Source: Sinohyriopsis cumingii
Lineage: Eukaryota > Mollusca > Bivalvia > Unionida > Unionidae
Assembly: GCA_028554795.2 (NCBI GenBank)
Contig: CM068839.1
Location: 39,151,006-39,215,005 of the forward strand
DNA: 64,000 nt
Direction: 5' to 3'
Shown here: in pieces, positions 4,375 through 62,443 of the stretch
Numbering within the stretch: position 1 is the first letter of the stretch
Layout of the letters: each line of letters starts with the position of its first letter
The notes under the pieces: generated by a model
Told to the model about the DNA's origin: nothing
Seen by the model: the letters and a program-made list of their open reading frames with translations, nothing else
Database searches by the model: none
Program-made: the position numbers and the translations under genes

Positions 4375-5504
4375 CGAGTGTGACACTTTCATCCACACGA
4401 TCTTGAAAAGTGCTTTTTACCTTGAAATAGATTGAATTTGAGTTAAACTCCAAAATGTACCAGAAAAGTCCTTAAAATCCTCACTAGCCCATAAAAGGTC
4501 CTTGAACTTTGAAACAAATGCCTTTCATCAGAGATACCACTATCTCTGATTTTAACTAAGTTTCACTGATTGTTTTACTGCAAATCTACACTGTAAAGTT
4601 ATGATCCCTTATCTCTTATTTTTTACTGTGTCAACATGATAGTAAGTTTAAATTTTCTAAGGTAAGAAGACATGTTATCCATTTCCAGTAGTTGGTATGT
4701 ATGTTGTACAGTTGGTATGTATGTTGTACAGTTTTCGTTCTCACTACTAATCAAAGTACATGAGTCACATATTTTTACTCACAGTCAACAGTATTTGGAA
4801 GAGTACTTTCATTGATAACAAAGAGAAATGTATGCCTTTGTAAGGTCTGTGAAAGTACATGATTCGTGCACACAGGAAAGTGGTATATTGAGATTACATG
4901 AACTTGAAAAACATGTAAATCTTGGGATGGTATGTAAGGAGACACCAAAAAAGGCAACATTATTCCTGCAGTATAACTTATCAAGTATTAAGCAATAAAA
5001 TCATCTTGACAAAGATTTTTGTTGAAATCAATCAGTTGTTGTCACTGAGTAACTTAAATTGAATGTACCGTATACACTTGCTCATTAGGTCAAGTCCAGC
5101 TTCAAACTGTATAGACCCTGATCTGTTGTTGCATCATGCACACAGATATCAGTGTCTGTGTTGCTTTAATTTTTTCTTTACTGATTACTCCTTACAAACG
5201 GCATGGATCAAGACCTGCAGGACATTATGCAACAGCAGCTCTGGGTCTATGCATTTTACAGTTGGATTTGACTTATCAGGAAGTATATTTGGTATTTGCC
5301 TTTGATTAAAAGTTTGAAACATTTTTTGTATTTGTGATATCAAACCAGTACATCTAAATCTTCTCCCCCCATCCCACCCCACCCCACGCCACACCCGACT
5401 GGATATCCTGATATTATATTCAGAATAAAATGATTCTCTTTTTTTTCATTATTTTAAAAACTAAAACTATTTAAAAAAATTTCAACACTGTAAATTGAAT
5501 AGTC
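4375..5504 (+). other. Intron, mostly unique sequence
   Basis: There is a 20-bp tandem pair (AGTTGGTATGTATGTTGTAC) near 4689-4730, a C-rich tract near 5365-5395, and otherwise unremarkable AT-rich intron. I see no exon. Confidence 0.55.
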
Positions 5505-8090: not shown

Positions 8091-8153
8091 CAGTGTGTCA
8101 GGATTTGCGTCTCAGGGAATATTGTTCCTCAGGACCGGGGACACCTTGTCTGG
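8091..8153 (+). pseudogene. Partial duplicate of the 3' end of hemicentin exon 3
   Basis: The segment TCCTCAGGACCGGGGACACC, TTGTCTG and GGTGAGTA matches the end of the exon at 6794-6922 (TCCTCAGGACCAGGGACACC, TTGTCTT, GGTGAGTA) with about two changes. Upstream similarity fades within about 30 bp. There is no matching acceptor or EGF start, so it is not a usable exon. The 25-bp array starts directly at its donor end. Confidence 0.8.
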
Positions 8154-9895
8154 GTGAGTACATATACACCTTGTCTGGGTGAGTACATATGCACCTTGTC
8201 TGGGTGAGTACATATGCACCTTGTCTGGGTGAGTACATATACACCTTGTCTGGGTGAGTATGGATACACCTTGTTTTGGTGAGTACATATACACCTTGTC
8301 TGGGTGAGTACATATACACCTCATCTGGGTGAGTATGGATACACCTTGTGTGGGTGAGTACATATACACCTTGTCTGGGTGAGTATGGATACACCTTGTT
8401 TTGGTGAGTACATATACACCTTGTCTGGGTGAGTACATATACACCTCATCTGGGTGAGTATGGATACACCTTGTGTGGGTGAGTACATATACACCTTGTC
8501 TGGGTGAGTACATATGCACCTTGTCTGGGTGAGTACATATGCACCTTGTCTGGGTGAGTACATATACACCTTGTCTGGGTGAGTATGGATACACCTTGTT
8601 TTGGTGAGTACATATACACCTTGTCTGGGTGAGTACATATACACCTCATCTGGGTGAGTATGGATACACCTTGTGTGGGTGAGTACATATACACCTTGTC
8701 TGGGTGAGTATGGATACACCTTGTGTGGGTGAGTACATATACACCTTGTCTGGGTGAGTATGGATACACCTTGTGTGGGTGAGTACATATACACCTTGTC
8801 TGGGTGAGTACATATACACCTTGTCTGGGTGAGTATGGATACACCTTGTTTTGGTGAGTACATATACACCTTGTCTGGGTGAGTACATATACACCTCATC
8901 TGGGTGAGTATGGATACACCTTGTGTGGGTGAGTACATATACACCTCATCTGGGTGAGTATGGATACACCTTGTGTGGGTGAGTACATATACACCTTGTC
9001 TGGGTGAGTACATATGCACCTTGTCTGGGTGAGTACATATACACCTTGTCTGGGTGAGTACATATACACCTTGTCTGGGTGAGTATGGATACACCTTGTT
9101 TTGGTGAGTACATATACACCTTGTCTGGGTGAGTACATATACACCTCATCTGGGTGAGTATGGATACACCTTGTGTGGGTGAGTACATATACACCTTGTC
9201 TGGGTGAGTACATATGCACCTTGTCTGGGTGAGTACATATGCACCTTGTCTGGGTGAGTACATATACACCTTGTCTGGGTGAGTATGGATACACCTTGTT
9301 TTGGTGAGTACATATACACCTTGTCTGGGTGAGTACATATACACCTCATCTGGGTGAGTATGGATACACCTTGTGTGGGTGAGTACATATACACCTTGTC
9401 TGGGTGAGTATGTATACACCATGTCTGGGTGAGTACATATACATCTCGTCTGGGTGAGTATGGATACACCTTGTGTGGGTGAGTATATATACACCTTGTC
9501 TGAATGAGTACATATACACCTTGTGTGGGTGAGTACATATACACCTTGTCTGGGTGAGTACATATACACCTTGTTTGGGTGAGTACATATACACCTTGTG
9601 TGTGTGAGCATGTATGCACCTTATGTGGGTGAGCATGTATGCACCTTGTGTGGGTGAGTATGTATACACCTTGTCTTGGTAAGTATGTATACACCTTGTG
9701 TTGGTGAGTACATATACACCTTGTCTACGTGAGTATGTATACACCTTGTCTGGGTGAGTACATATATATCTTGTGTGGGTGAATACATATCCACCTTGTC
9801 TGCATGAGTACATATACACCTTGTGTGGGTGAGTATTGCTTGTCTGGGTGAGTACATATATACTTTGTCTGGGTGAGTACATATACAAACTGAGT
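8140..9895 (+). repeat. 25-bp minisatellite of about seventy splice donors
   Basis: The unit core is ACACCTTGTCTGGGTGAGTA, period 25 bp, with variants (ATGGATAC for CATATAC, TGTGTGGG, TTTTGGTG) arranged in higher-order blocks of several units. Nearly every unit carries GGTGAGTA, a near-consensus 5' splice site identical to the donor of the third hemicentin exon. Units near the right end are more divergent. The minus strand has no stop in the unit, so all three frames stay open for up to 257 codons; that is a by-product of the repeat. Confidence 0.94.
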
Positions 9896-10559
9896 ATCAT
9901 TTTTCTTTTGGGGTTCTTTTTGCATTCAAGATTGCTGACTGCCAATCCCACACAATGTATTTTCACAGTTATATTTCATGGCATGTCCACAAAATCTATG
10001 GGTCTGTTACAGCTGTCAGCCATTACAAGTTTGGCATACATTGTTTTGATGTCCAAGTTGCATATGATCTTGTTTTTAAATTTGTAATCCATATGCTCCA
10101 AAAACAATTTTCATGTGTTAGGAAATTGTAGAAAACAACTTTCATTTTAAAAATATACACATACCACTCATGTACATTCACAACATTTGTACAAAATGTT
10201 CTGCTTAAGCACTTCACAAACAAACTTCAAAACATCAAACCCATTATTGTATGATGATGTTCCATCCAAGAAAATCTTGGACTTATTGAGAGGTTGCAGT
10301 TTATTTAACAAAAATCAATCTAATGTTTTAAGGAGTTTACATGTGTTTCCTTTATCTTCTATATTACATACATACACCATATCTGGTATGTAGTCCTTGT
10401 GTAAGATATTTCATAATTGTGCAGAATTTCAAATTTTAGCAATTAACTTTTGATGCTTTGTTTGAATGTGAACACTTTTTTCTCCAGAAATGATGGGTCC
10501 AGGTGCCATTCCCAATCACCCCAAAAATCCTGTGAAGTTAATCTCAGGCTATTTATCAT
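9896..10559 (+). other. Intron, unique sequence
   Basis: AT-rich intron sequence between two arrays. Nothing coding or RNA-like is recognised. Confidence 0.5.
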
Positions 10560-13059: not shown

Positions 13060-13115
13060 TTCTAGACTATGGATTTAGCACATTATCAGCTTAGATCCAT
13101 GGATTTATCACATTA
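13060..13115. repeat. Left remnant of the 30-bp minisatellite
   Basis: Two units with the same core as the large array right of the transposon (ATGGATTTATCACATTA, TCAGCTTAGATCC). They show that the transposon inserted inside the array. Confidence 0.85.
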
Positions 13116-13230
13116 CACTGGACAACAAATTTTTACAAAAGTCATGTTACTGAAATAAAATTAGTCAATTCTTATCAATTTTTATGTGCTGAACACGAAT
13201 ATGACAGTCAAATTGCAAAATTGGCTCTAG
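13116..13230. repeat. Left terminal inverted repeat of the CACTA-like element
   Basis: CACTGGACAAC starts the element, and the inner matching block GAACACGAATAT lies near 13,190. It pairs with about 15,402-15,515. Confidence 0.75.
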
Positions 13231-13332
13231 TTTTTTTGTAATCTGCAAGAAATTAATGTTTACATAACGAAATGCATTCCAATAGTAAAAGGTCAACTGT
13301 AATAGCCTACCTATAAAAAATCAAGTCATTGA

Positions 13333-15021
13333 CTACATCTTAGATTTCTTCGCCTGTCTCTTGTACAGCTGTTCGGGAGCATCTCTGAGGAGTGTCCAGC
13401 AGTAGTCAGCCAGCATTGTAGTGGACCATTTTCCCTGGTATCTTTGTTCCATTGTTGCGATATCTTGATGAAAACGTTCGCCGTGTTCATCACTAACAAT
13501 ACCACAGTTGCTAGGAAAGAAATCCAAATGGGAATGAAGGAAGTGAATCTTTAGAGACATATTGCAGCCAAGTTTCTTATACTTCATCAACATGTCTTCT
13601 ACTAGTTCTTTATAGTTTTCTGCCCTAACATTTCCGAGGAAGTTTGTAGAAACTAGGCGAAAAGCATTCCATGCTTGTTTCGCGTCACCTTCCAGCAAGT
13701 TGTTGAACCGGTCATCTTTGAAAAGCTCTCGAATCTGAGGACCCACAAATACTCCCTCTTTAATCTTTGCTTCGCTGAGTCGAGGGAATTTTTCATGCAG
13801 GTATCGGAATGCTGGCAAAGTCCGGTCAATGGCTTTCACGAAGTTCTTCATCAAACCTAGTTTGATGTGAAGGGGTGGTAGCAAGATTTTCTGAGCCTCA
13901 ACCAGAGCTGGGTGTTGGATATTCTTCTCTCCAATGGCTACATTCTGCCTGTGAGTCCATTCCTTCCTCATGTAGTGCATTTCCCTTGCACGGCTATCCC
14001 ACTCGCATAAGAAACACATGTATTTTGTATATCCTTGCTGCAGTCCCATTAAAAGGGCAACTACCTTCAAATCACCACAGAGGTGCCAGCTGTACTTGTT
14101 ATACTCAATGGAATTCAGTAGCTGCCTTAAGTTATCGTATGTCTCTTTCATGTGGACAGCATACGCTACTGGAATAGATGGAAGAATGTTTCCATTGTGC
14201 AAAAGCACAGCCTTGAGACTCAGTTTCGAAGAGTCCACAAATAGTCTCCATTCTTGTGGGTCATGAGTGATTTTTAAAGCATTCATGAGGCCCTCAATAT
14301 CGGAACAGAATATCAGATTACTTTCCTTTCTGAAGAAAGGCTCCAATTGCTGGTGGCGCTTTCGATATGCAGTAATTGTGACATCTTCTTCTAGAAGATT
14401 CCATTGTTGGAGTCTTGATCCTAGCAATTCTGCCTTGTTCTTTGATAAGTCCAAATCACGAATCAGGTCATTTAGTTCTTCCTGTGTTATTCTGTGTGGG
14501 GTTGATGATGCACCACAGTGAAAATCTGGATCACTGCATGCTGATGGACCAGGAGAAGAACAGGTCGACTCACCTTTGTCTTCGTCAGATGAATCAAGAG
14601 AATATTCTGCTGGAGGTTCTGGAATAGGAAGTCCCTCACCATGTGGAACTGGTCTCAATGCAGACGGAATGTTTGGGTAGACTATTCTCGACTTCTTTCG
14701 CTTCGTTATTCCGCCGGAAAGAGGAGGAACCAAGCAGAAGTAACAGTCATTTAGGTGGTTGCTTGGCTCTCTCCACACCATTGGGACTGCAAACGGCATT
14801 GATGACCTTTTGCAATTCAACCACTGTGAAAGCTGTGTTGTACATGTAGCACAGCATATATGCGGAGCCCAAGGCTTGTCTTGGTCACCAACCTTGCATC
14901 CGAAGTAAAGATGATATGCCTTCTTCACTTGATAATTGATACTTTTCTTCTGGTTGGCAAATGTCACTTCCCCACAAATATAGCAAAAATTGTCCGCGGT
15001 ATTAACACACTTTCGAGGCAT
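13333..15021 (-). CDS. Transposase-like protein of the CACTA-like element, 562 aa
   Basis: An intact intronless frame starts MPRKCVNTADNFCYICG. The N-terminal ~130 residues are Cys-rich (CYICG, HICCATC, CYFC), suggesting a zinc-binding DNA-binding region; an acidic linker (SSDEDKGE) follows. The C-terminal half has LFVDSSKLSLKAVLLHNG, LCGDLKVVALL, a CFLCEW pair and LKIHFLHSHLDF followed by SDEHGERFHQD. I recognise this as a multi-copy family found across invertebrates and usually annotated as uncharacterised. The acidic residues in FVDSS, CGDLK and DEHGERF are candidates for an RNase H-type DDE/D triad. The transposase role is inferred from these and from the flanking TIRs. ATG at 15021 lies about 490 bp inside the TIR end, a reasonable promoter distance. 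Confidence 0.75.
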   Translation of the reverse strand: MPRKCVNTADNFCYICGEVTFANQKKSINYQVKKAYHLYFGCKVGDQDKPWAPHICCATCTTQLSQWLNCKRSSMPFAVPMVWREPSNHLNDCYFCLVPPLSGGITKRKKSRIVYPNIPSALRPVPHGEGLPIPEPPAEYSLDSSDEDKGESTCSSPGPSACSDPDFHCGASSTPHRITQEELNDLIRDLDLSKNKAELLGSRLQQWNLLEEDVTITAYRKRHQQLEPFFRKESNLIFCSDIEGLMNALKITHDPQEWRLFVDSSKLSLKAVLLHNGNILPSIPVAYAVHMKETYDNLRQLLNSIEYNKYSWHLCGDLKVVALLMGLQQGYTKYMCFLCEWDSRAREMHYMRKEWTHRQNVAIGEKNIQHPALVEAQKILLPPLHIKLGLMKNFVKAIDRTLPAFRYLHEKFPRLSEAKIKEGVFVGPQIRELFKDDRFNNLLEGDAKQAWNAFRLVSTNFLGNVRAENYKELVEDMLMKYKKLGCNMSLKIHFLHSHLDFFPSNCGIVSDEHGERFHQDIATMEQRYQGKWSTTMLADYCWTLLRDAPEQLYKRQAKKSKM

Positions 15022-15401
15022 TACTGTTCTTTATTGTACGTAAATGGATAAAATAATAAGTTTTATGTAACAGTAGCTTGAACTGTCTCGCACAACGTCT
15101 AAAATATTTTAAATGCTGAACCTATCTGATTGGGCTTTATATAGTACACTGCTTACGTCAGCTTCAGCAGCCGCCTGGCATTAGTATAATAGGCCTACAC
15201 ATGTATAGTACACTGCTGACGTCAACTTACTTCAGCAGCCGCATGGCATTAGTATTGCATTGCATCAGAAAATGATGCAATCAACTGTGGATGATGTGAG
15301 CATGATGGTATTATGCAATGTTACATCATTATTCCGGATGTTGCTGCAGTCCTACTGGAGAAATTTACACAGTGAAACATAGAAAATGAGGTATATGAAT
15401 A

Positions 15402-15515
15402 TCTTCAAAACGAGAGCCAATACAAATTTTTCACGGTTATATTCGTGTTCGGCACACCAAAATACTACAGATTAGGGCCTTTTCAAGTCAGTAATGATTT
15501 CACTGTTGACCAGTG
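15402..15515. repeat. Right terminal inverted repeat of the CACTA-like element
   Basis: The plus-strand end GTTGACCAGTG is followed by the TTA target duplication. The inner block ATATTCGTGTTC is the complement of the left one. Confidence 0.75.
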
Positions 15516-17868
15516 TTATCAGCTTAGACCCATGAATTCATCACATTATCAGTTTAGATCCATGGATTTATCACATTATCAGTTTAGATCCATGTATTTA
15601 TCACAATATCAGCTTAGATCCATGGATTTATCACATTATCAGTTTAGACCCATGGATTTATCACATTATCAGTTTAGACCCATGAATTTCTCACATTATC
15701 AGCTTAGATCCATGGATTTACCACATTATCAGTTTAGATCCATGGATTTATCACATTATCAGTTTAGACCCATGGATTTATCACATTATCAGCTTAGATC
15801 CATGGATTTATCACATTATCAGTTTAGATCCATGTATTTATCACAATATCAGCTTAGATCCATGGATTTATGACATTATCAGTTTAGACCCATGGATTTA
15901 TCACATTATCAGTTTAGACCCATGAATTTCTCACATTATCAGCTTAGACCCATGGATTTCTCACATTATCAGCTTAGATCCATAGATCTAGCACATTATC
16001 AGCTTAGAGCCATGGATTTATCACATATTAGTTTAGACCCATGGATTTAGCACATTATCAGCTTAGAGCCATGGATTTATCACATATTAGTTTAGACCCA
16101 TGGATTTAGCACATTATCAGCTTAGATCCATGGATTTAGCACATATTAGTTTAGATCCATGGATTTAGCACATTATCAGCTTAGAGCCATGGATTTATCA
16201 CATATTAGTTTAGACCCATGGATTTAGCACATTATCAGCTTAGATCCATGGATTTATCACATTATCAGTTTAGACCCATGAATTCATCACATTATCAGTT
16301 TAGATCCATGGATTTATCACATTATCAGTTTAGATCCATGTATTTATCACAATATCAGCTTAGATCCATGGATTTATGACATTATCAGTTTAGACCCATG
16401 GATTTATCACATTATCAGTTTAGACCCATGAATTTCTCACATTATCAGCTTAGATCCATGGATTTATCACATTATCAGTTTAGATCCATGGATTTATCAC
16501 ATTATCAGTTTAGACCCATGGATATATCACATTATCAGCTTAGATCCATGGATTTATCACATTATCAGTTTAGATCCATGTATTTATCACAATATCAGCT
16601 TAGATCCATGGATTTATGACATTATCAGTTTAGACCCATGGATTTATCACATTATCAGTTTAGACCCATGAATTTCTCACATTATCAGCTTAGATCCATG
16701 GATTTATCACATTATCAGTTTAGATCCATGGATTTATCACATTATCAGTTTAGACCCATGGATTTATCACATTATCAGCTTAGATCCATGGATTTATCAC
16801 ATTATCAGTTTAGACCCATGGATTTATCACATATTAGTTTAGACCCATGGATTTATCACATATTAGTTTAGACCCATGGATTTAGCACATTATCAGCTTA
16901 GAGCCATGGATTTATCACATATTAGTTTAGATCCATGGATTTAGCACATATTAGTTTAGATCCATGGATTTAGCACATTATCAGCTTAGATCCATGGATT
17001 TATCACATTATCAGCTTAGATCCATGGATTTAGCACATTATCAGCTTAGAACTATGGATTTAGCACATTATCAGTTAGATCCATGGATTTATCACATATT
17101 AGTTTAGACCCATGGATTTAGCACATTATCAGCTTAGAGCTATGGATTTATCACATATTAGTTTAGATCCATGGATTTAGCACATTATCAGCTTAGAGCC
17201 ATGGATTTATCACATATTAGTTTAGACCCATGGATTTAGCACATTATCAGCTTAGACCCATGAATTTCTCACATTATCAGTTTAGATCCATGGATTTATC
17301 ACATTATCAGTTTAGACCCATGGGTTTATCACATTATCAGTTTAGACCCATGGATTTATCACATTATCAGCTTAGATCCATGGATTTATCACATTATCAG
17401 TTTAGACCCATGGATTTATCACATATTAGTTTAGATCCATGGACTTAGCACATATTAGTTTAGATCCATGGATTTAGCACATTATTAGCTTAGATCCATG
17501 GATTTAGCACATTATCAGCTTAGATCCATGGATTTAGCACATTATCAGCTTTGACCCATGGATTTAGCACATTATCAGCTTAGACCCATGGATTTATCAC
17601 ATATTAGTTTAGACCCATGGATTTAGCACATTATCAGCTTAGAGCCATGGATTTATCACATATTAGTTTAGATCCATGGATTTAGCACATTATCAGCTTA
17701 GAGCCATGGATTTATCACATATTAGTTTAGATCCATGGATTTAGCACATTATCAGCTTAGATCCATGGATTTAGCACATTATCAGCTTAGATCCATGGAT
17801 TTAGCACATATTAGTTTAGACCCATGGATTTATCACATTATCAGCTTAGAGCCATGGATTTATCACAG
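15516..17868. repeat. 30-bp minisatellite, about eighty copies
   Basis: The core is ATCCATGGATTTATCACATT followed by ATCAGCTTAG. Variants are AGACCC/AGATCC, CAGTTTAG/CAGCTTAG and a 29-bp form lacking a base (CACATATTAG). Blocks of six to twelve units recur as higher-order repeats, for example 15,520-15,870 against 16,270-16,800. Thirty is a multiple of three, so part of it reads open as a ten-residue repeat (MDLSHYQFRP); this is not evidence of coding. The array stops about 35 bp before a hemicentin acceptor. Confidence 0.93.
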
Positions 17869-31855: not shown

Positions 31856-32318
31856 GTACATTAAGTTTATAGCATTTAGCTCTGCTTTTCTCAAATAGTT
31901 GTATATATATATATTTGTGAACCCTAATGAGTGTGTTCATTTTGGAGGCTACTACTCATGCTGGGGAAAAAGCAGGTCACAGTGACATTTTCATGCTTAT
32001 GTGAATTTTGAAGTTTTTGAATTATGCTACATTGGAGCAGGTGAGACATGATATTTAGAGAATTTTCGCTAGACTTGTGCAAGGAAGCTTGTTGAAAATG
32101 GTTGCTTTTAGACATTGTTGCTAAATATATGTGTTTTCAAGGCCAGGCTTGAATATATTGTACATTTCCAGCCAACACTGTGATGTGAGACAAAATACTA
32201 TTTTGAGCTTGGTGTTTATAAAAGTATTTTTAAAGTTACATACAATTTATAACTCAATAAGTAACAGATGGTCAAAATTACATTTCATCATTGATATGGT
32301 TTACTTTTTATCATGCAG
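31856..32318 (+). other. End of the last hemicentin intron
   Basis: AT-rich sequence between the LINE tail and the terminal acceptor, with a (TA)5 run near 31,905. The open frame that runs into the last exon from 32,131 is chance. Confidence 0.55.
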
Positions 32319-32697
32319 TTACTGCGTTCTAGAGTGTATCGATGCTGATGTAGCTTGCCCTCCCAGTGCAAAGTATGCAGATGTCATTGAGTTCCGTACT
32401 CTAGCACTTCCAAGTGGAATACTTGCTCATCAGGACCTTCTGCGACTGATAGCATACAATCAAAATAATGTAATCTTGCGAAAAACAGAGTTCAAGATAA
32501 TGGAAAATGAAGAAGGGATTCCCTTCAGAATTCGATTAGATGATGGAATAGGAGTTTTGTATACTGTGCGACCACTTGAAGATAAGGATGTTTACAGGAT
32601 CAAAGTACGTGCTCGCTCATTTGACAATATTGAAAATACTATACAGTATCAGACCACTTTTATCATTCACATTTCAATATCAGCATATCCATATTGA
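32319..32697 (+). CDS. HMCN1: Hemicentin terminal exon: fibulin-type C-terminal module
   Basis: The acceptor is TTATCATGCAG. The exon enters in phase 2, completing an Asn codon and then YC, the last Cys of the preceding EGF. It runs 125 residues to TGA at 32695-32697. Hallmarks are LPSGI, an LLRLIAYNQ segment, a YRIKVRA-like strand, YQTTFIIHIS and the terminal SAYPY. Known: this is the fibulin-type C-terminal (FC) module that closes hemicentins and fibulins; the SAYPY end is hemicentin-like. The open frame extends upstream of 32319, but that part is intron by the acceptor and by homology. Confidence 0.93.
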
Positions 32698-54394: not shown

Positions 54395-55065
54395 ACAATA
54401 ATAATAATAATAATGAGGACTTTGTATAGCTAATAATCTTTAGAAGCTCTAAGCCCTGTCCAACATTAGACAACACCTATAAGAAAAAAAAAAACATATA
54501 ATAATATTATTACAAAAACAAACAACATGAAATTAGAAAAACTTAAAAAAATAAAAAAACATGCTGAGAATATTTCAGGTAGGAAACATTATTAGGTCTT
54601 TAAGTTTGTTCTTGCAATCGAAATAAGTGTGTTTTGAGAGCCCTCTTGAATGTGATCACTGTGTCTTTGTGTCTAAGTTCAGTGGGCAATTCATTCCACG
54701 TTGCTGGGCCCTGGTATGCAAAAGAACGCTGTCCATATGACTTTGTTTTCATAGTGGGAATAATGAGTATACTATTGTCAGAAGAGGAGCGTAAGTATCT
54801 TGCTGGTGTGTACACAAGGGTGAGGTCGGATAGGTATGTTGGACTAGAGTCCAACAGTGAAACGTAGCACAGAGAACAAATTTTATGTTTGATTCTCGAT
54901 CGAATGGATAGCCAGTGTAGGGTACAGAGCAGCGAGGAGGTGTGCTCTGATCGTGGTACTCTAAGTATGATCCAAGCAGGTGTGTTTTGAACTTTTTGAA
55001 GTTTCTGGAGCAGATATTGAGATGAACCAGATATAACTGAGTAACAATAATGCAAAATTTAACTA
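54395..55065 (-). mobile_element. LINE 3' end with C-terminal RT frame
   Basis: A 151-codon frame contains LQKLQKVQNT, LHWLSIRSRIKHKICSLCY, YTPARYLRSSSDN, KSYGQRSFAYQGPATWNELP and TFKRALKTHLF, the standard C-terminal region of Jockey/CR1/L2-type LINEs. It is followed by the 3' UTR and (AAT)n tail at 54,397-54,415 that recurs at 1.0 kb. This piece is nearly intact, so it is among the youngest LINE copies here. It is 5' truncated near 55,065. Confidence 0.85.
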
Positions 55066-58457: not shown

Positions 58458-58689
58458 CATCTTTGGATTAAGTGAATCGTCATCATATTGTTTGTGAAAG
58501 TCTACACCTATTGTTTATATTCGATTGTGACCTTCTTGACAAGATGATCTTCAAGTAGGTGTTTATTTTGTTTAGTTGTTCTAGGTCTGTGGGTCTAGTA
58601 TAAATACATATTCATTTTGTTTTGCTTGCCTTCATCATGAATATAAGGTTAGTTTCTTTTGTAAAATTTGATTTGTTTTATTGCTATTA

Positions 58690-59717
58690 ATGATGTCATC
58701 CCTTAAGAACTTGGTCGCTTTAGGTAAAGAGCTTGGGTATGAGGGAGAAAGTTTAAGGGAATTTATTAAGGAAGAACAAGCACGGGAGAGGGATGAAAGG
58801 GTAAAGGCGTGGGAATTGGAAAGGCAATTAGAAAGGGGAAAAAAGGAAGCTGAGAAGGAAAAGATAGAACTAGAAAAACAGGCCGAAAAGGAAAGGATAG
58901 AATGGGAAAGGGGAGCTGAGATGGAGAAGATAGAGTTAGAAAAAGAAGCAAGGTTAGAAGCTTTGGAGATAGAAGAAAAATTAAGGCATCGAGATCATGA
59001 ACGTAAGGTAGAGTTATCAACAGCTAGAAAAGGAGAACACTATTCTGCCTCTAGTAAATTAAAGGGTCCCAATTTACCCCCCCCCCCTTTGACGATGAAA
59101 AAGATAACATGGATGGTTATCTTCATCGGTTTGAGCGGTATGCCGAGAACCAGAAGTGGAGTCGAAATGACTGGGCACTGCATCTCATTGCTTTATTAAA
59201 AGGTAAAGCGCTGGATGTGTACTCGCGATTTCCTGGAGATGGTGTGTTCAAATACGACGTCCTGGAGGGAGCACTTCTTAAAAGGTACGAGCTGACTATA
59301 CAGGGTTTCCGTAAAAAGTTCAGGTGTAGCAAGCCCGAGAAGGGAGAAACCTTTGATCAGTTCATCGTTAGAATAGCGAACTATTTTCAGCGGTGGATTG
59401 AATGCGGCAAAGCGGTGAAAACGTTTGAAGGGTTGACTGATTTCTTGCTCAGAGATCAATTGTTGAACACAGTTGGGCGGGAACTAAGTCAGTTTCTGAA
59501 AGAGAAAGTCTTCTCAAACGTACAGAATATGGCTAAGCAAGCCGCTTTCTATGTCGAGGCTCATGGGGGAACCCAGGACGTGGTTTCAAAAGATTTTAAG
59601 TCTGGTTTCCAGTCTACGAGACCGATGCCTAAGGAGCTTGTGAAATCAACTGAGGCAAGTAGGTCAGTTAGGGATACAGGTCGTCAGGGTATACAAAGTT
59701 ACTTGTGTAAGGAATAG
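58690..59717 (+). pseudogene. gag of the Gmr1-like element, frame-broken
   Basis: The first ATG is at 58690. The N-terminal ~115 codons form a charged coiled coil (ELERQLERGKKEAEKEK). At a run of eleven C (59,077-59,087) the frame must change by one to continue with a capsid part: FRKKFRCSKPEKGETFDQFI, RWIECGKAVKTFEGLTDFLL and SQFLKEKVFS, which is SCAN-like in arrangement. The zinc knuckle just after is eroded: its first Cys position is Ser and a stop lies in it at 59,715. Capsid and nucleic-acid binding roles are known for the family; this copy cannot make a full Gag. Confidence 0.8.
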
Positions 59718-60242
59718 GGTCATGTTCAAGCAAAATGTCCTAAAAGAAAGGGACCGATACATAAGGTAGCCGTATCTATACAGAATAAAGGTGTATCTGA
59801 TAATCTTGTGCAGGTAGAACCAGGTATTCATAAACTTGGCACGTGTCTTTTTCCCAAAGTGCGAGTACCAACCGCGAGAGGTTTCGTGAACGGTCGAGAA
59901 GTCGTAGCATTACGTGACACTGGTTGCACGGGTGTAGTGATCAAACGTAGTCTCGTGCAGGATAACCAAATGCTTGGGTGGGAGTCCCCATGTATACTAC
60001 TCGATCAGACGATCGGTCGCATTCCCGTAGCAAGGATCGCGGTAGAAACACCTTTCCTAACCGGAACTGTTGATGCCCTTTGTATGGAAAACCCTATTTA
60101 CGATCTGACGATCGGTAATGGTGAAGGTTCCCGTCTTCCAACCATGGCAGATTTCAGGATACCAGGCAGTCGAAACGTGAGCGGAACCAGACGAGAGAAA
60201 AACGCGTTTCAGAATTTAATAGTCCCTGAATCGATCTCCTGA
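59718..60242 (+). pseudogene. Aspartic protease region of the Gmr1-like element
   Basis: A frame of about 170 codons after the gag stop, beginning with the rest of the knuckle (GHVQAKCPKRKG), then the active-site block VVALRDTGCTGVVIKRSLV (D-T-G) and a TVDALCMENPIYDLTIGN second half typical of retropepsins. It ends at TGA, but the same frame resumes with ISRDEFKREQERD, the usual spacer before integrase. Confidence 0.8.
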
Positions 60243-61581
60243 ATTTCGCGTGATGAATTCAAACGAGAACAAGAACGTGACGCATCCATCAAAACGCGTC
60301 CGGCACAATTAAACACTGCAAGGGTGGGGGCAGCTCGAAATTCGTTCGGAGGAACGAGCTAATTCACAGGAAGTTTATCACTCCGGAGGGTAAGAGGTAT
60401 TGGGAAGTGGTCGTACCCCAGAGATACAGATCTCAAAATACTTATGGTGGCACATGAGTCTAGCATGGCAGGACACCTAGGTAAGGCGAAGACCACCAGC
60501 AGAGTAGTCGCTGAATTCTACTGGCCTGGTGTTAATGGCGATGTCACACGGTTCTGTAGGTCTTGTGACGTATGCCAGAAAACCGTATGTAAGGGAAGGG
60601 TCACAGGGGTACTCTTAGGACATATGTCATTAATAGATACACCGTTTAAAAGAGTGGGGGTGGATATTGTAGGCCCAATACAACCAGTTACCGAAAGGAA
60701 GAACCGGTATATTCTTACTCTTGTGGATTACGCAACCAGATATCCCGAAGCCGTAGTGTTACCAACTATTGAAACGAAACGGGTGGCTGAAGCATTGGTT
60801 GACATCTTCAGTAAGGTAGGGGTGCCAGAAGAAATCCTTACGGATTGTGGTGCCGAATTCACCTCCGACCTCATGGGTGAAATAAGTAGGCTGTTATCCA
60901 TCAAACAGCTAAACACTACCCCATACCATCCGATGTGCAATGGACTGGTAGAGAAATTTAATGGTACCCTAAAACATATGCTACGAAAAGACTGGGACCG
61001 CTATTTGAGCGCGGTTCTGTTCGCGTACCGTGAAGTACAGCAAGAACGTTTAGGGTGTTCACCCTTCAAATTGCTGTATGGAAGAACAGTTCGAGGCCCG
61101 ATGCGGATACTACGCGAACTATAGACAGGTGACGTCGCGAGCGAGGAAATAAAAACTACCTACCAGTACGTGTTAGATCTGCGAGAAACTGGAAAGTACA
61201 TGCCATATAGCACGTGATTATTTAATGAAATCGGGAGGCAGATATGCCAAATATTATAACCGCAGAGCGCGAAATAGGAAATTTCTTGTAGGAGATCAGG
61301 TTCTATTGTTTCTTCCTACTAGCACAAAAAAGTTACTAGTCCAGTGGAAAGGTCCCATCGAAGTTAAAGAGGTCAAGAATGACATGGACTATAAAATTGA
61401 CATAGACAGTAATTTAAAGACATTTCATGCTAACATGCTTAAGTTGTACATCAAGAGACATAGGGACAATGTAGAAAAATGGGTCTTACATGTCGTACGG
61501 CAGTCATCGACGACGACGTGGGAGAATCAGAACACGAAGTTTCCCTTGAGTGTCCCTTGGGTGTTGCAAGGGAAGGGGTAG
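60243..61581 (+). pseudogene. Integrase of the Gmr1-like element
   Basis: The core frame 60,444-61,124 is intact: an HHCC zinc finger (HESSMAGH ... CRSCDVCQKT), and the DDE catalytic core with VGVDIVGPI, LTDCGAEFTSD and LVEKFNGTLK, all three acidic residues present. After a stop and frame change a GPY/F-type C-terminal module follows (VGDQVLLFLP, LVQWKGPIEV, FHANMLKLYI). The start of the zinc-finger domain is also in another frame. Its position before RT is the diagnostic feature. Confidence 0.88.
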
Positions 61582-62443
61582 ATCAAGTCGATGTGAGTGC
61601 GGAGTTGACAAAAGACCAGCGTCAGCAAATTAATGCGCTTTTGGTTAAATACTCGGATGTATTCACCGACAAACCAGGTTGTACAACCTTGATAGACCTC
61701 AAAATTAAACTGAATACATCTGACCCCATTAGAATCAAAGGTTATCCGGTACCATACAACGCACGAGAAGCTGTGGAAGAAGAGGTGAGTAAAATGTTAG
61801 ATCTGGGGTGATCGAACTCTCCAACTCGCCATATTCTTCTCCCGTAGTGCTAGTCAGAAAAAAAGATGGGACGAACTGATTCTGTATCGACTTCTGACAG
61901 TTAAATAAAATTACGGTGTTCGATGCCGAACCAGTGCCAAATATGGAGAGCCTATTTGCGAAGTTGTCGGGCAACCGATGGATTTCCAAATTATATTTGT
62001 CCAAGGGATATTGGCAGGTTCCCATTGTTCAAGAGTCCCGTACATTGACAGCATTTGCGACCCAGAAAGGATTATATCAATTCAAGGTAATACCATTCGG
62101 TTTAGTAGGTGCCGGTGCATCCTGTTGTCGTTTGATGCGCAAGTTGCTAAAAGGTTTAGCAAGAGTTGATTGCTTTGTAGACGACATATTTGTGTACACG
62201 AATACTTGGAGTGAGCACGTGTCCGTCTTGGGGGAACTCTTCGATAGACTCCGCAGAGCGAACCTCACAGTGAGACCCACTAAATGCAGTATTGGCTATA
62301 CAGATTTAGATTGTTTGGGTCATAGGGTCAGTGGTTCGGGTCATTTGAAACGTCACTCCAAGCAAGTGGAAACGATTAGAAACGCACCTAAGACGGATAA
62401 CAAAATGCAAGTTATTTCTTTTCTCGGTCTAGTAGGGTTTTAA
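61479..62443 (+). pseudogene. Reverse transcriptase of the Gmr1-like element, inactive
   Basis: A N-terminal piece (YSDVFTDKPGCT, IKGYPVPYNAREAVEEEV) ends at a stop near 61,810. A second frame carries the palm: SKLYLSKGYWQVPIV, where the usual catalytic Asp of motif A is Tyr, then TAFATQKGLYQFKVIPFGL and FVDDIFVYT, the intact YVDD-type site, and LGHRVSG. With the motif A change and stops it cannot be active. Confidence 0.85.

Follow-up and report, generated by a model that had tools for sequence, protein, structure and literature searches.

A probable Chapaev3-type DNA transposon in thousands of near-identical copies in the genome of Sinohyriopsis cumingii

A stretch of 64,000 nucleotides from the genome of the bivalve Sinohyriopsis cumingii (GenBank assembly GCA_028554795.2, contig CM068839.1, positions 39,151,006 to 39,215,005; the window, in whose own coordinates all positions below are given) contains an intact open reading frame for a 562-residue protein enclosed by inverted repeats. 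This raises the question whether the protein is the transposase of a mobile element and, if so, to which group the element belongs and how it spread. The original prediction, made from the sequence of the window, had proposed a complete, young transposon of the CACTA/EnSpm type encoding an orphan protein family. The element looks autonomous and is likely a cut-and-paste DNA transposon belonging to Chapaev3, within the CMC/RAG1-like DDE group; the 562-residue protein is very probably its transposase. Elements of this kind are known; what is notable here is the presence of thousands of near-identical, mostly full-length copies.

The element and its copies in the genome

The element occupies 2400 bp (13116-15515), with the transposase gene on the minus strand. 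Its left end starts with CACTGGACAAC and its right end finishes with GTTGACCAGTG, resulting in CACTGG..CCAGTG termini. Directly outside of them lies a TTA target-site duplication (13113-13115, with an A before it, and 15516-15518, with a T after it), recognized from the sequence and from other copies; boundaries, termini and duplication are exactly as originally described. Alignment delimits imperfect terminal inverted repeats of about 120 bp, the left one (13116-13240, plus strand) on the 3′ side of the transposase gene and resembling the end of an older family described below, the right one (15391-15515, minus strand) on its 5′ side. The local alignment score of the 260-bp ends was 80, compared to a maximum of 69 among 300 shuffles, and the longest ungapped arm reported was 35 nt with 83% complementarity. 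The inverted repeats are therefore real, and the length of about 110 bp proposed for them is a fair figure, if a loose one because the repeats are imperfect. A subterminal TTGGCTCT box, a candidate transposase binding site, is found at 13221-13228 (plus strand) and 15413-15420 (minus strand); as TTGGCTCT-N-GTTTT it lies about 96-113 bp from both ends of the young family to which this copy belongs. In agreement with the original prediction, the transposase frame (13333-15021, minus strand) is a single exon without internal stop. A TATA-box-like sequence (15138-15143, minus strand) is located about 120 bp before the ATG; around and upstream of it, a pair of 25-26-bp direct repeats separated by 64-68 bp (15140-15255) is perhaps a duplicated promoter element. 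According to repeat analysis, the insertion interrupts a 30-bp minisatellite on the plus strand, with one part on the left (13069-13115) and the main part on the right (15516-17800, end approximate). The proposal that the pre-insertion site can be reconstructed from this minisatellite held, as the flanks joined with one TTA (107 bp) match the adjoining repeat at 106 of 107 bases.

For other copies, the whole genome (2.905 Gb, 1138 contigs) was searched. In the protein search, the best 77 of 9588 candidates were scored, and all 77 are full length, listed at 100% and without stops. The 30 loci fetched (L001-L030) were those most similar to the window protein, which biases them toward intact copies. 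In 28 of them, both CACTGG..CCAGTG ends are present 2400 bp apart (2401 bp in one). The two loci outside this count are L012, in which one end is not an exact match, and L022, in which the end sequences point to a neighboring or nested second copy. If other copies had lacked the inverted repeats, the assignment of the protein as a transposase would have failed; these loci did not refute it. A perfect 3-bp duplication flanks 27 of the 28 copies (TAA in 13, TTA in 7, AAA and TAT in 2 each, CTT, TGG and TTG in 1 each), the remaining one, L028, having a one-base mismatch (CAA/CTA). Duplications of the form TWA occur in 20 of the 27 loci, compared to 1.8 expected from base composition (p 2e-18), and an A before together with a T after the duplication in 18, compared to 2.8 expected (p 4e-12). 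Among nine young copies obtained later (L059-L063 and L082-L085), seven have matching triplets (TAA in four, TTA, ATA and CAA) and two do not (L061, TTA/TAA; L083, TTT/TTA). The unmatched triplets of the full-length copies L028, L061 and L083 could stem from later mutation of the duplication, from recombination of one copy with another or from insertion that was imperfect to begin with.

Less biased figures come from genome-wide end counts, a sample in which ends were paired, the fraction of exact ends and the four copies L082-L085. Using 40-bp patterns with up to three mismatches on both strands, the transposase-upstream end was found at 5104 places (2568 and 2536 on the two strands) and the other end at 5087 (2524 and 2563), and a reversed control pattern gave 0 matches. 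For the pairing, 100 of the 5104 left ends were listed, all of them exact and all in the first 49.5 Mb of one contig (C1), together with 94 of 100 listed right ends, the other six being located past the last of these left ends. In this pairing, right ends carrying a mismatch would be scored as missing. An exact right end followed at exactly 2400 bp in 73 cases and at 2364-2402 bp in 89. For the remaining left ends, it was located at 2295 bp (one), 1540 bp (one) or 8-17 kb (three), or none was listed (six). Since 89 of the 100 pair at 2364-2402 bp, about nine tenths of the copies sampled here are full length, and short derivatives retaining both ends are rare. Left ends are exact in 4826 of 5104 cases, which gives a divergence of about 0.14% per site. 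If neutral rates between 1e-9 and 8e-9 per site and year are assumed, this would mean an age of 1.4 to 0.18 million years. In line with this, L082 and L084 (both 2400 bp) contain 6 and 3 substitutions and L083 (2399 bp) contains 5 plus a one-base gap; L085 (1540 bp) has a single internal deletion of about 860 bp. As a rough guide, counted by hand in a list ranked by similarity to another family, about 95 of 109 young-family rows have a complete 565-codon frame without stops. If all copies were full length, they would amount to about 12 Mb or 0.4% of the genome. The presence of about 5,000 almost identical copies in one genome shows that the family has spread very recently, which bears out the original description of a complete, young element.

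A few copies deviate from this uniform picture. L059 and L063 (both on contig C15) have a 12-bp in-frame deletion in common; as the same deletion is flanked by different target duplications (TAA and CAA), the derivative behind them has apparently transposed in its own right. In L060, another deletion, again in frame, removes 51 bp, and the target duplication is ATA. On contig C12 (85784235-85784828), one transposase copy lies inside an open frame of 2219 residues where 565 is usual; this may reflect a fusion, a tandem array or an in-frame neighboring repeat.

The transposase and a second, decayed family

Decayed relatives with many stops and frameshifts were uncovered by a DEHGERFHQD pattern with another His codon, which matched 4 old copies along with 24 young ones carrying a single base change; a further search added more old copies. 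The same pattern with another Phe codon matched 4 places whose letters resemble young copies with one changed base. With these two patterns, in which only these two codons were changed, as well as among the listed relatives, no family of intermediate age was seen. An apparent third family (open frames of 429-565 residues) turned out to consist of diverged or deleted copies of the young one. In 16 copies of the old family, the main matching stretch is 42-60% identical to the young protein. Among 13 copies examined for their ends, nine have a CACTGG-type end (CACTGGTCTAC, slightly altered in L074 and L075) on at least one side. No end of this type was recognizable in the other four (L070, L071, L073 and L079). 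L077 (2626 bp) has both ends with TAA on both sides; TAA or TTA lies beside the single end read in L064, L072, L076, L078 and L080, and the other triplets TGA, TGG and GTT beside the end of L074, L075 and L081. The TTGGCTCT box is found at the transposase-upstream end of the old family, and only TTGGCT at the other end. Since this second family has CACTGG ends too, the association of protein and ends is not peculiar to one young family. Between the families, the proportion of synonymous differences is saturated (pS 0.80-0.86) while that of nonsynonymous ones (pN) is 0.24-0.34 in all 16 old copies; judged from these proportions, purifying selection acted on the protein before the old copies decayed.

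The same 16 copies, with a mean column identity of 55%, were used to score the conservation of motifs in the protein, all encoded on the minus strand. The second catalytic residue is proposed to be D317 of CGDLK (14071-14073), which aligns with D708 of RAG1 and is D in 13 copies. It is followed by C(2)C, Cys336-Cys339 (14005-14016), aligned with RAG1 C727/C730 and kept in 14 and 15 copies, and by the LH motif, Leu384-His385 in PPLHIKLG (13867-13872), aligned with LHCDIG of RAG1 and kept in 13 and 14. D263 of FVDSS (14233-14235; D in 11 copies) is a plausible first catalytic residue, proposed from its order only. For the third, E512 of DEHGERF (13486-13488), which aligns with RAG1 E962 and is kept in 11 copies, competes with E525 (13447-13449), kept in 12; E515 is kept in 8. 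Of the three motifs around which an RNase H fold was originally suspected, CGDLK and DEHGERF align with RAG1, and FVDSS stands as a candidate by order, with E525 as a rival of E512. The H(4)H motif is most likely His513-x4-His518 in HGERFH (13468-13485), because this pair is better kept in the old copies (12 and 14 of 16) than H493 (4 of 15) and H498 (6 of 14), which were dropped for this reason. If the last acid follows its histidine pair, H513/H518 would go with E525, and E512 would be left with the poorly kept H493/H498. The N-terminal part contains a Cys/His cluster (C13, C16, H37, C42, H54, C56, C57, C60, C93 and C96), each residue of which is kept in 11-15 of 14-16 old copies, and which may be the zinc finger called Chapa domain in PMC4411706.

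The comparison with RAG1, whose letters were taken from chain 9jpu_A, adds to this. The spacing D317-x18-C336-x2-C339 equals that of RAG1 D708, C727 and C730, and the D317/D708 window scores best of all ungapped 23-column windows (43, compared to 31 for the next independent one). When only non-anchor residues were considered, the combined score of the three segments (D, LH and E) was reached by 1 of 100,000 shuffles, the values for the single segments being 0.0007, 0.006 and 0.005. RAG1 chain 6oem_A has Q at position 962, which fits the catalytic role of E962. Taken together, these alignments support that the protein shares motif segments with the CMC/RAG1-type DDE group.

Neither Pfam nor PHROGs yielded a usable match. 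Fifteen Pfam matches of single old-family pieces (E 0.02-0.25) were taken as chance, as was a match to a PHROG endolysin (E 0.052). A PDB sequence search with the protein gave nothing usable, with two matches at E 1 and 2, and the two beta-lactamases found in a second one (E 0.062) were also taken as chance. No relatives were found in viral and prokaryotic contigs; the one pattern match, L065, is not a relative. AlphaFold structure models reached a mean predicted local distance difference test (pLDDT) value of 37.5 from the single sequence and of 55.5 with 53 old-family pieces, most of the core being below 50; these pieces had been picked by hand from 75, the 22 excluded ones (the longest with 108 residues) being short, overlapping or weakly aligned. 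In fold searches, mostly one helical stretch was matched and nothing usable was obtained for the core, RAG1/Transib not being among the matches listed.

Mechanism, group placement and origin

These observations are consistent with cut-and-paste as the most likely mode of transposition. The 562-residue transposase would bind the subterminal repeats of the inverted ends via its N-terminal Cys/His cluster and would cleave the CAC/GTG termini by means of a DDE active site composed of D263, D317 and E512 or E525, which a zinc site formed by C336/C339 and two histidines would presumably keep in place. Insertion, preferably at A-TWA-T, would occur with a 3-base stagger giving rise to the 3-bp duplication. 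With their intact frames and ends, copies of the family may still be active.

Within the CMC-type elements, the Chapaev3 group has been described as having CAC/GTG ends, insertion between A and T with duplication of TWA, a transposase containing the motifs C(2)C, LH and H(4)H and, in most cases, a single exon (PMC4079192). In the element studied here, the CAC..GTG termini recur at 2400/2401 bp in the copies read, TWA between A and T is a strong preference, looser than in the families of PMC4079192, each residue of the three motifs is present in 12-15 of the 16 old copies, the motifs being short and weak if taken alone, and the size of 2400 bp with 562 residues in one exon falls into the range of 2.3-2.45 kb, about 560 residues and usually one exon. 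D2, C(2)C, LH and E are found in the arrangement of RAG1, with anchors chosen post hoc. The main competitor of this placement is that the element belongs to EnSpm/CACTA proper, as an animal member of that group. This would explain the CACTG/CAGTG ends and the 3-bp duplication, both of which are also reported for EnSpm (PMC12730594), as well as the C(2)C and H(3-4)H motifs, which are common to the whole CMCT group. The ends and the duplication are common to Chapaev3 as well and are therefore not diagnostic. Because most TWA targets are flanked by A and T, the C(2)C, LH and H(4)H motifs are present, and the size and the single frame of about 560 residues match the description of Chapaev3 (PMC4079192), Chapaev3 is preferred over strict EnSpm. 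In Pfam, the protein has no match to Transposase_21 or any other model, though an animal EnSpm might also miss that model. A strict EnSpm/CACTA element is considered unlikely, and the originally proposed CACTA/EnSpm type is kept as far as the CMC type is concerned and replaced by Chapaev3 as the better group. DUF1280 is named as Chapaev in PMC3985635; a search of the genome for it gave no match, and as the control was also empty, this is uninformative.

Three further explanations concern the protein and its copies rather than the group. A host gene or passenger mobilized by something else would be in accordance with the lack of a matching Pfam transposase family, yet the frame lies at a constant place between both ends in the copies read, the second family is arranged alike and the RAG1-like segments occur in order, so that this appears very improbable. 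A high copy number caused by segmental duplication or satellite-like spread might be suspected from copies lying close together (e.g., C17:60271300, 60285877 and 60291343) and from the 12-bp deletion common to L059 and L063. The flanks of the 28 loci, however, differ mutually, 27 of these loci have their own 3-bp duplication, and even L059 and L063 differ in theirs, which leaves this explanation with next to no probability. Finally, the same element could have spread in ancient times and been kept uniform by gene conversion. Some conversion is compatible with the sequence alone, but the decayed family was not homogenized, and the preserved duplications around single, scattered copies point to recent integration, making this scenario scarcely credible.

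Several points weigh against the assignment to Chapaev3 and the CMC/RAG1-type group, which is still preferred. Membership in Chapaev3, as proposed here, rests on motifs, target and anatomy, the named Chapaev3 transposases being compared by description only, and the CAC/GTG ends and 3-bp duplications are EnSpm traits too. Seven of the 27 duplications are not TWA and nine lack the A..T flanks, which are given as constant in PMC4079192, and the flanking triplets of L028, L061 and L083 do not match. At the level of the protein, there is no match to any Pfam model, the anchors in RAG1 were picked by eye before the p-value was computed, a profile comparison with RAG1 placed the match correctly without being significant (E 0.12), the quality of the structure models is too low for an RNase H fold to be recognized, and the histidines which would precede E512 are poorly kept.

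As to the origin of the copies, we propose that a single autonomous Chapaev3 element entered the lineage recently from outside and is still in its invasion phase, a scenario for which the chances appear about even. That no copies intermediate between the young (about 0.14%) and the old family were seen in this genome, with the two codon-changed patterns or among the listed relatives, fits a recent entry from another species. If it is true, about 5,000 copies which are mostly full length, many of them coding, with few miniature derivatives, would represent the picture of an invasion phase. Such a genome would offer a natural experiment on how an invasion proceeds while neither silencing nor the takeover by miniature inverted-repeat transposable elements (MITEs) has set in. 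It would then also be, to our knowledge, the largest known set of near-identical, potentially coding CMC elements. Independent of this, a protein without a Pfam model is tied to transposition, and near-identical intact copies could make a CMC transposase testable; we know of little biochemistry on CMC transposases outside RAG1/Transib.

Elsewhere in the window, long low-complexity open frames at 1245-1775 and 8112-9966 derive from minisatellites and by their look are not genes. Gag-like, integrase-like and reverse-transcriptase-like open frames at 58681-62443 lie in separate frames and are presumably pieces of a Ty3/gypsy-like retroelement. An open frame at 54600-55055 (minus strand) appears to us to resemble the C-terminal part of the reverse transcriptase of a long interspersed nuclear element (LINE), and one at 32131-32697 contains a stretch (LPSGILAHQDLLRLIAYNQNN) which we take to resemble a fibulin/hemicentin C-terminal domain, perhaps of a host exon.

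Comparison with known systems

In comparison to RAG1/Transib, the D-x18-C-x2-C, LH and E segments of the transposase align with RAG1. The two are nevertheless distant, the distance between the first and second catalytic residue being 54 here and 108 in RAG1, and Transib makes 5-bp duplications. With CACTA/EnSpm elements, the element shares CACTG-like ends, a 3-bp duplication and CMC-type motifs, and it differs from them by the TWA target with A/T flanks, its small size and the single transposase frame.

Chapaev and Chapaev3 were already described in Repbase Reports of 2007 and 2008, as seen from the reference list of PMC4411706. The protein family is therefore an orphan, as originally proposed, with respect to Pfam but not with respect to its kind. 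A description of this particular element was not found in the literature searched, which comprised few subscription papers and did not include Repbase Reports. A close likeness by description is Merrow, a Chapaev3 element of lampreys with 2,451 bp (compared to 2,400 bp here), a protein of 562 residues (78 + 484; likewise 562 here), CAC/GTG ends, a TWA target and C(2)C, LH and H(4)H; it has two exons instead of one (PMC4079192). Garfield, found in silkworm and others as well as in a bracovirus, also resembles the element in size (2,289 bp), protein length (78 + 478 = 556 residues), target and motifs, and again differs by having two exons, while Conan_ET of the same group is shorter (1,865 bp, 461 residues) (PMC4079192). 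A further difference lies in copy number. In Table 1 of PMC4079192, no full-length family is more numerous than Merrow with its >254 copies, compared to about 5,000 here. In silkworm, Garfield is represented by few full copies and by 97 copies of a 468-bp MITE (PMC4079192), in contrast to the few deletion derivatives among the sampled copies of S. cumingii. Non-autonomous copies can arise soon after an invasion, as exemplified by the P element (PMC12393704), so that it is a question in itself why deletion derivatives are so scarce in a family with thousands of members.

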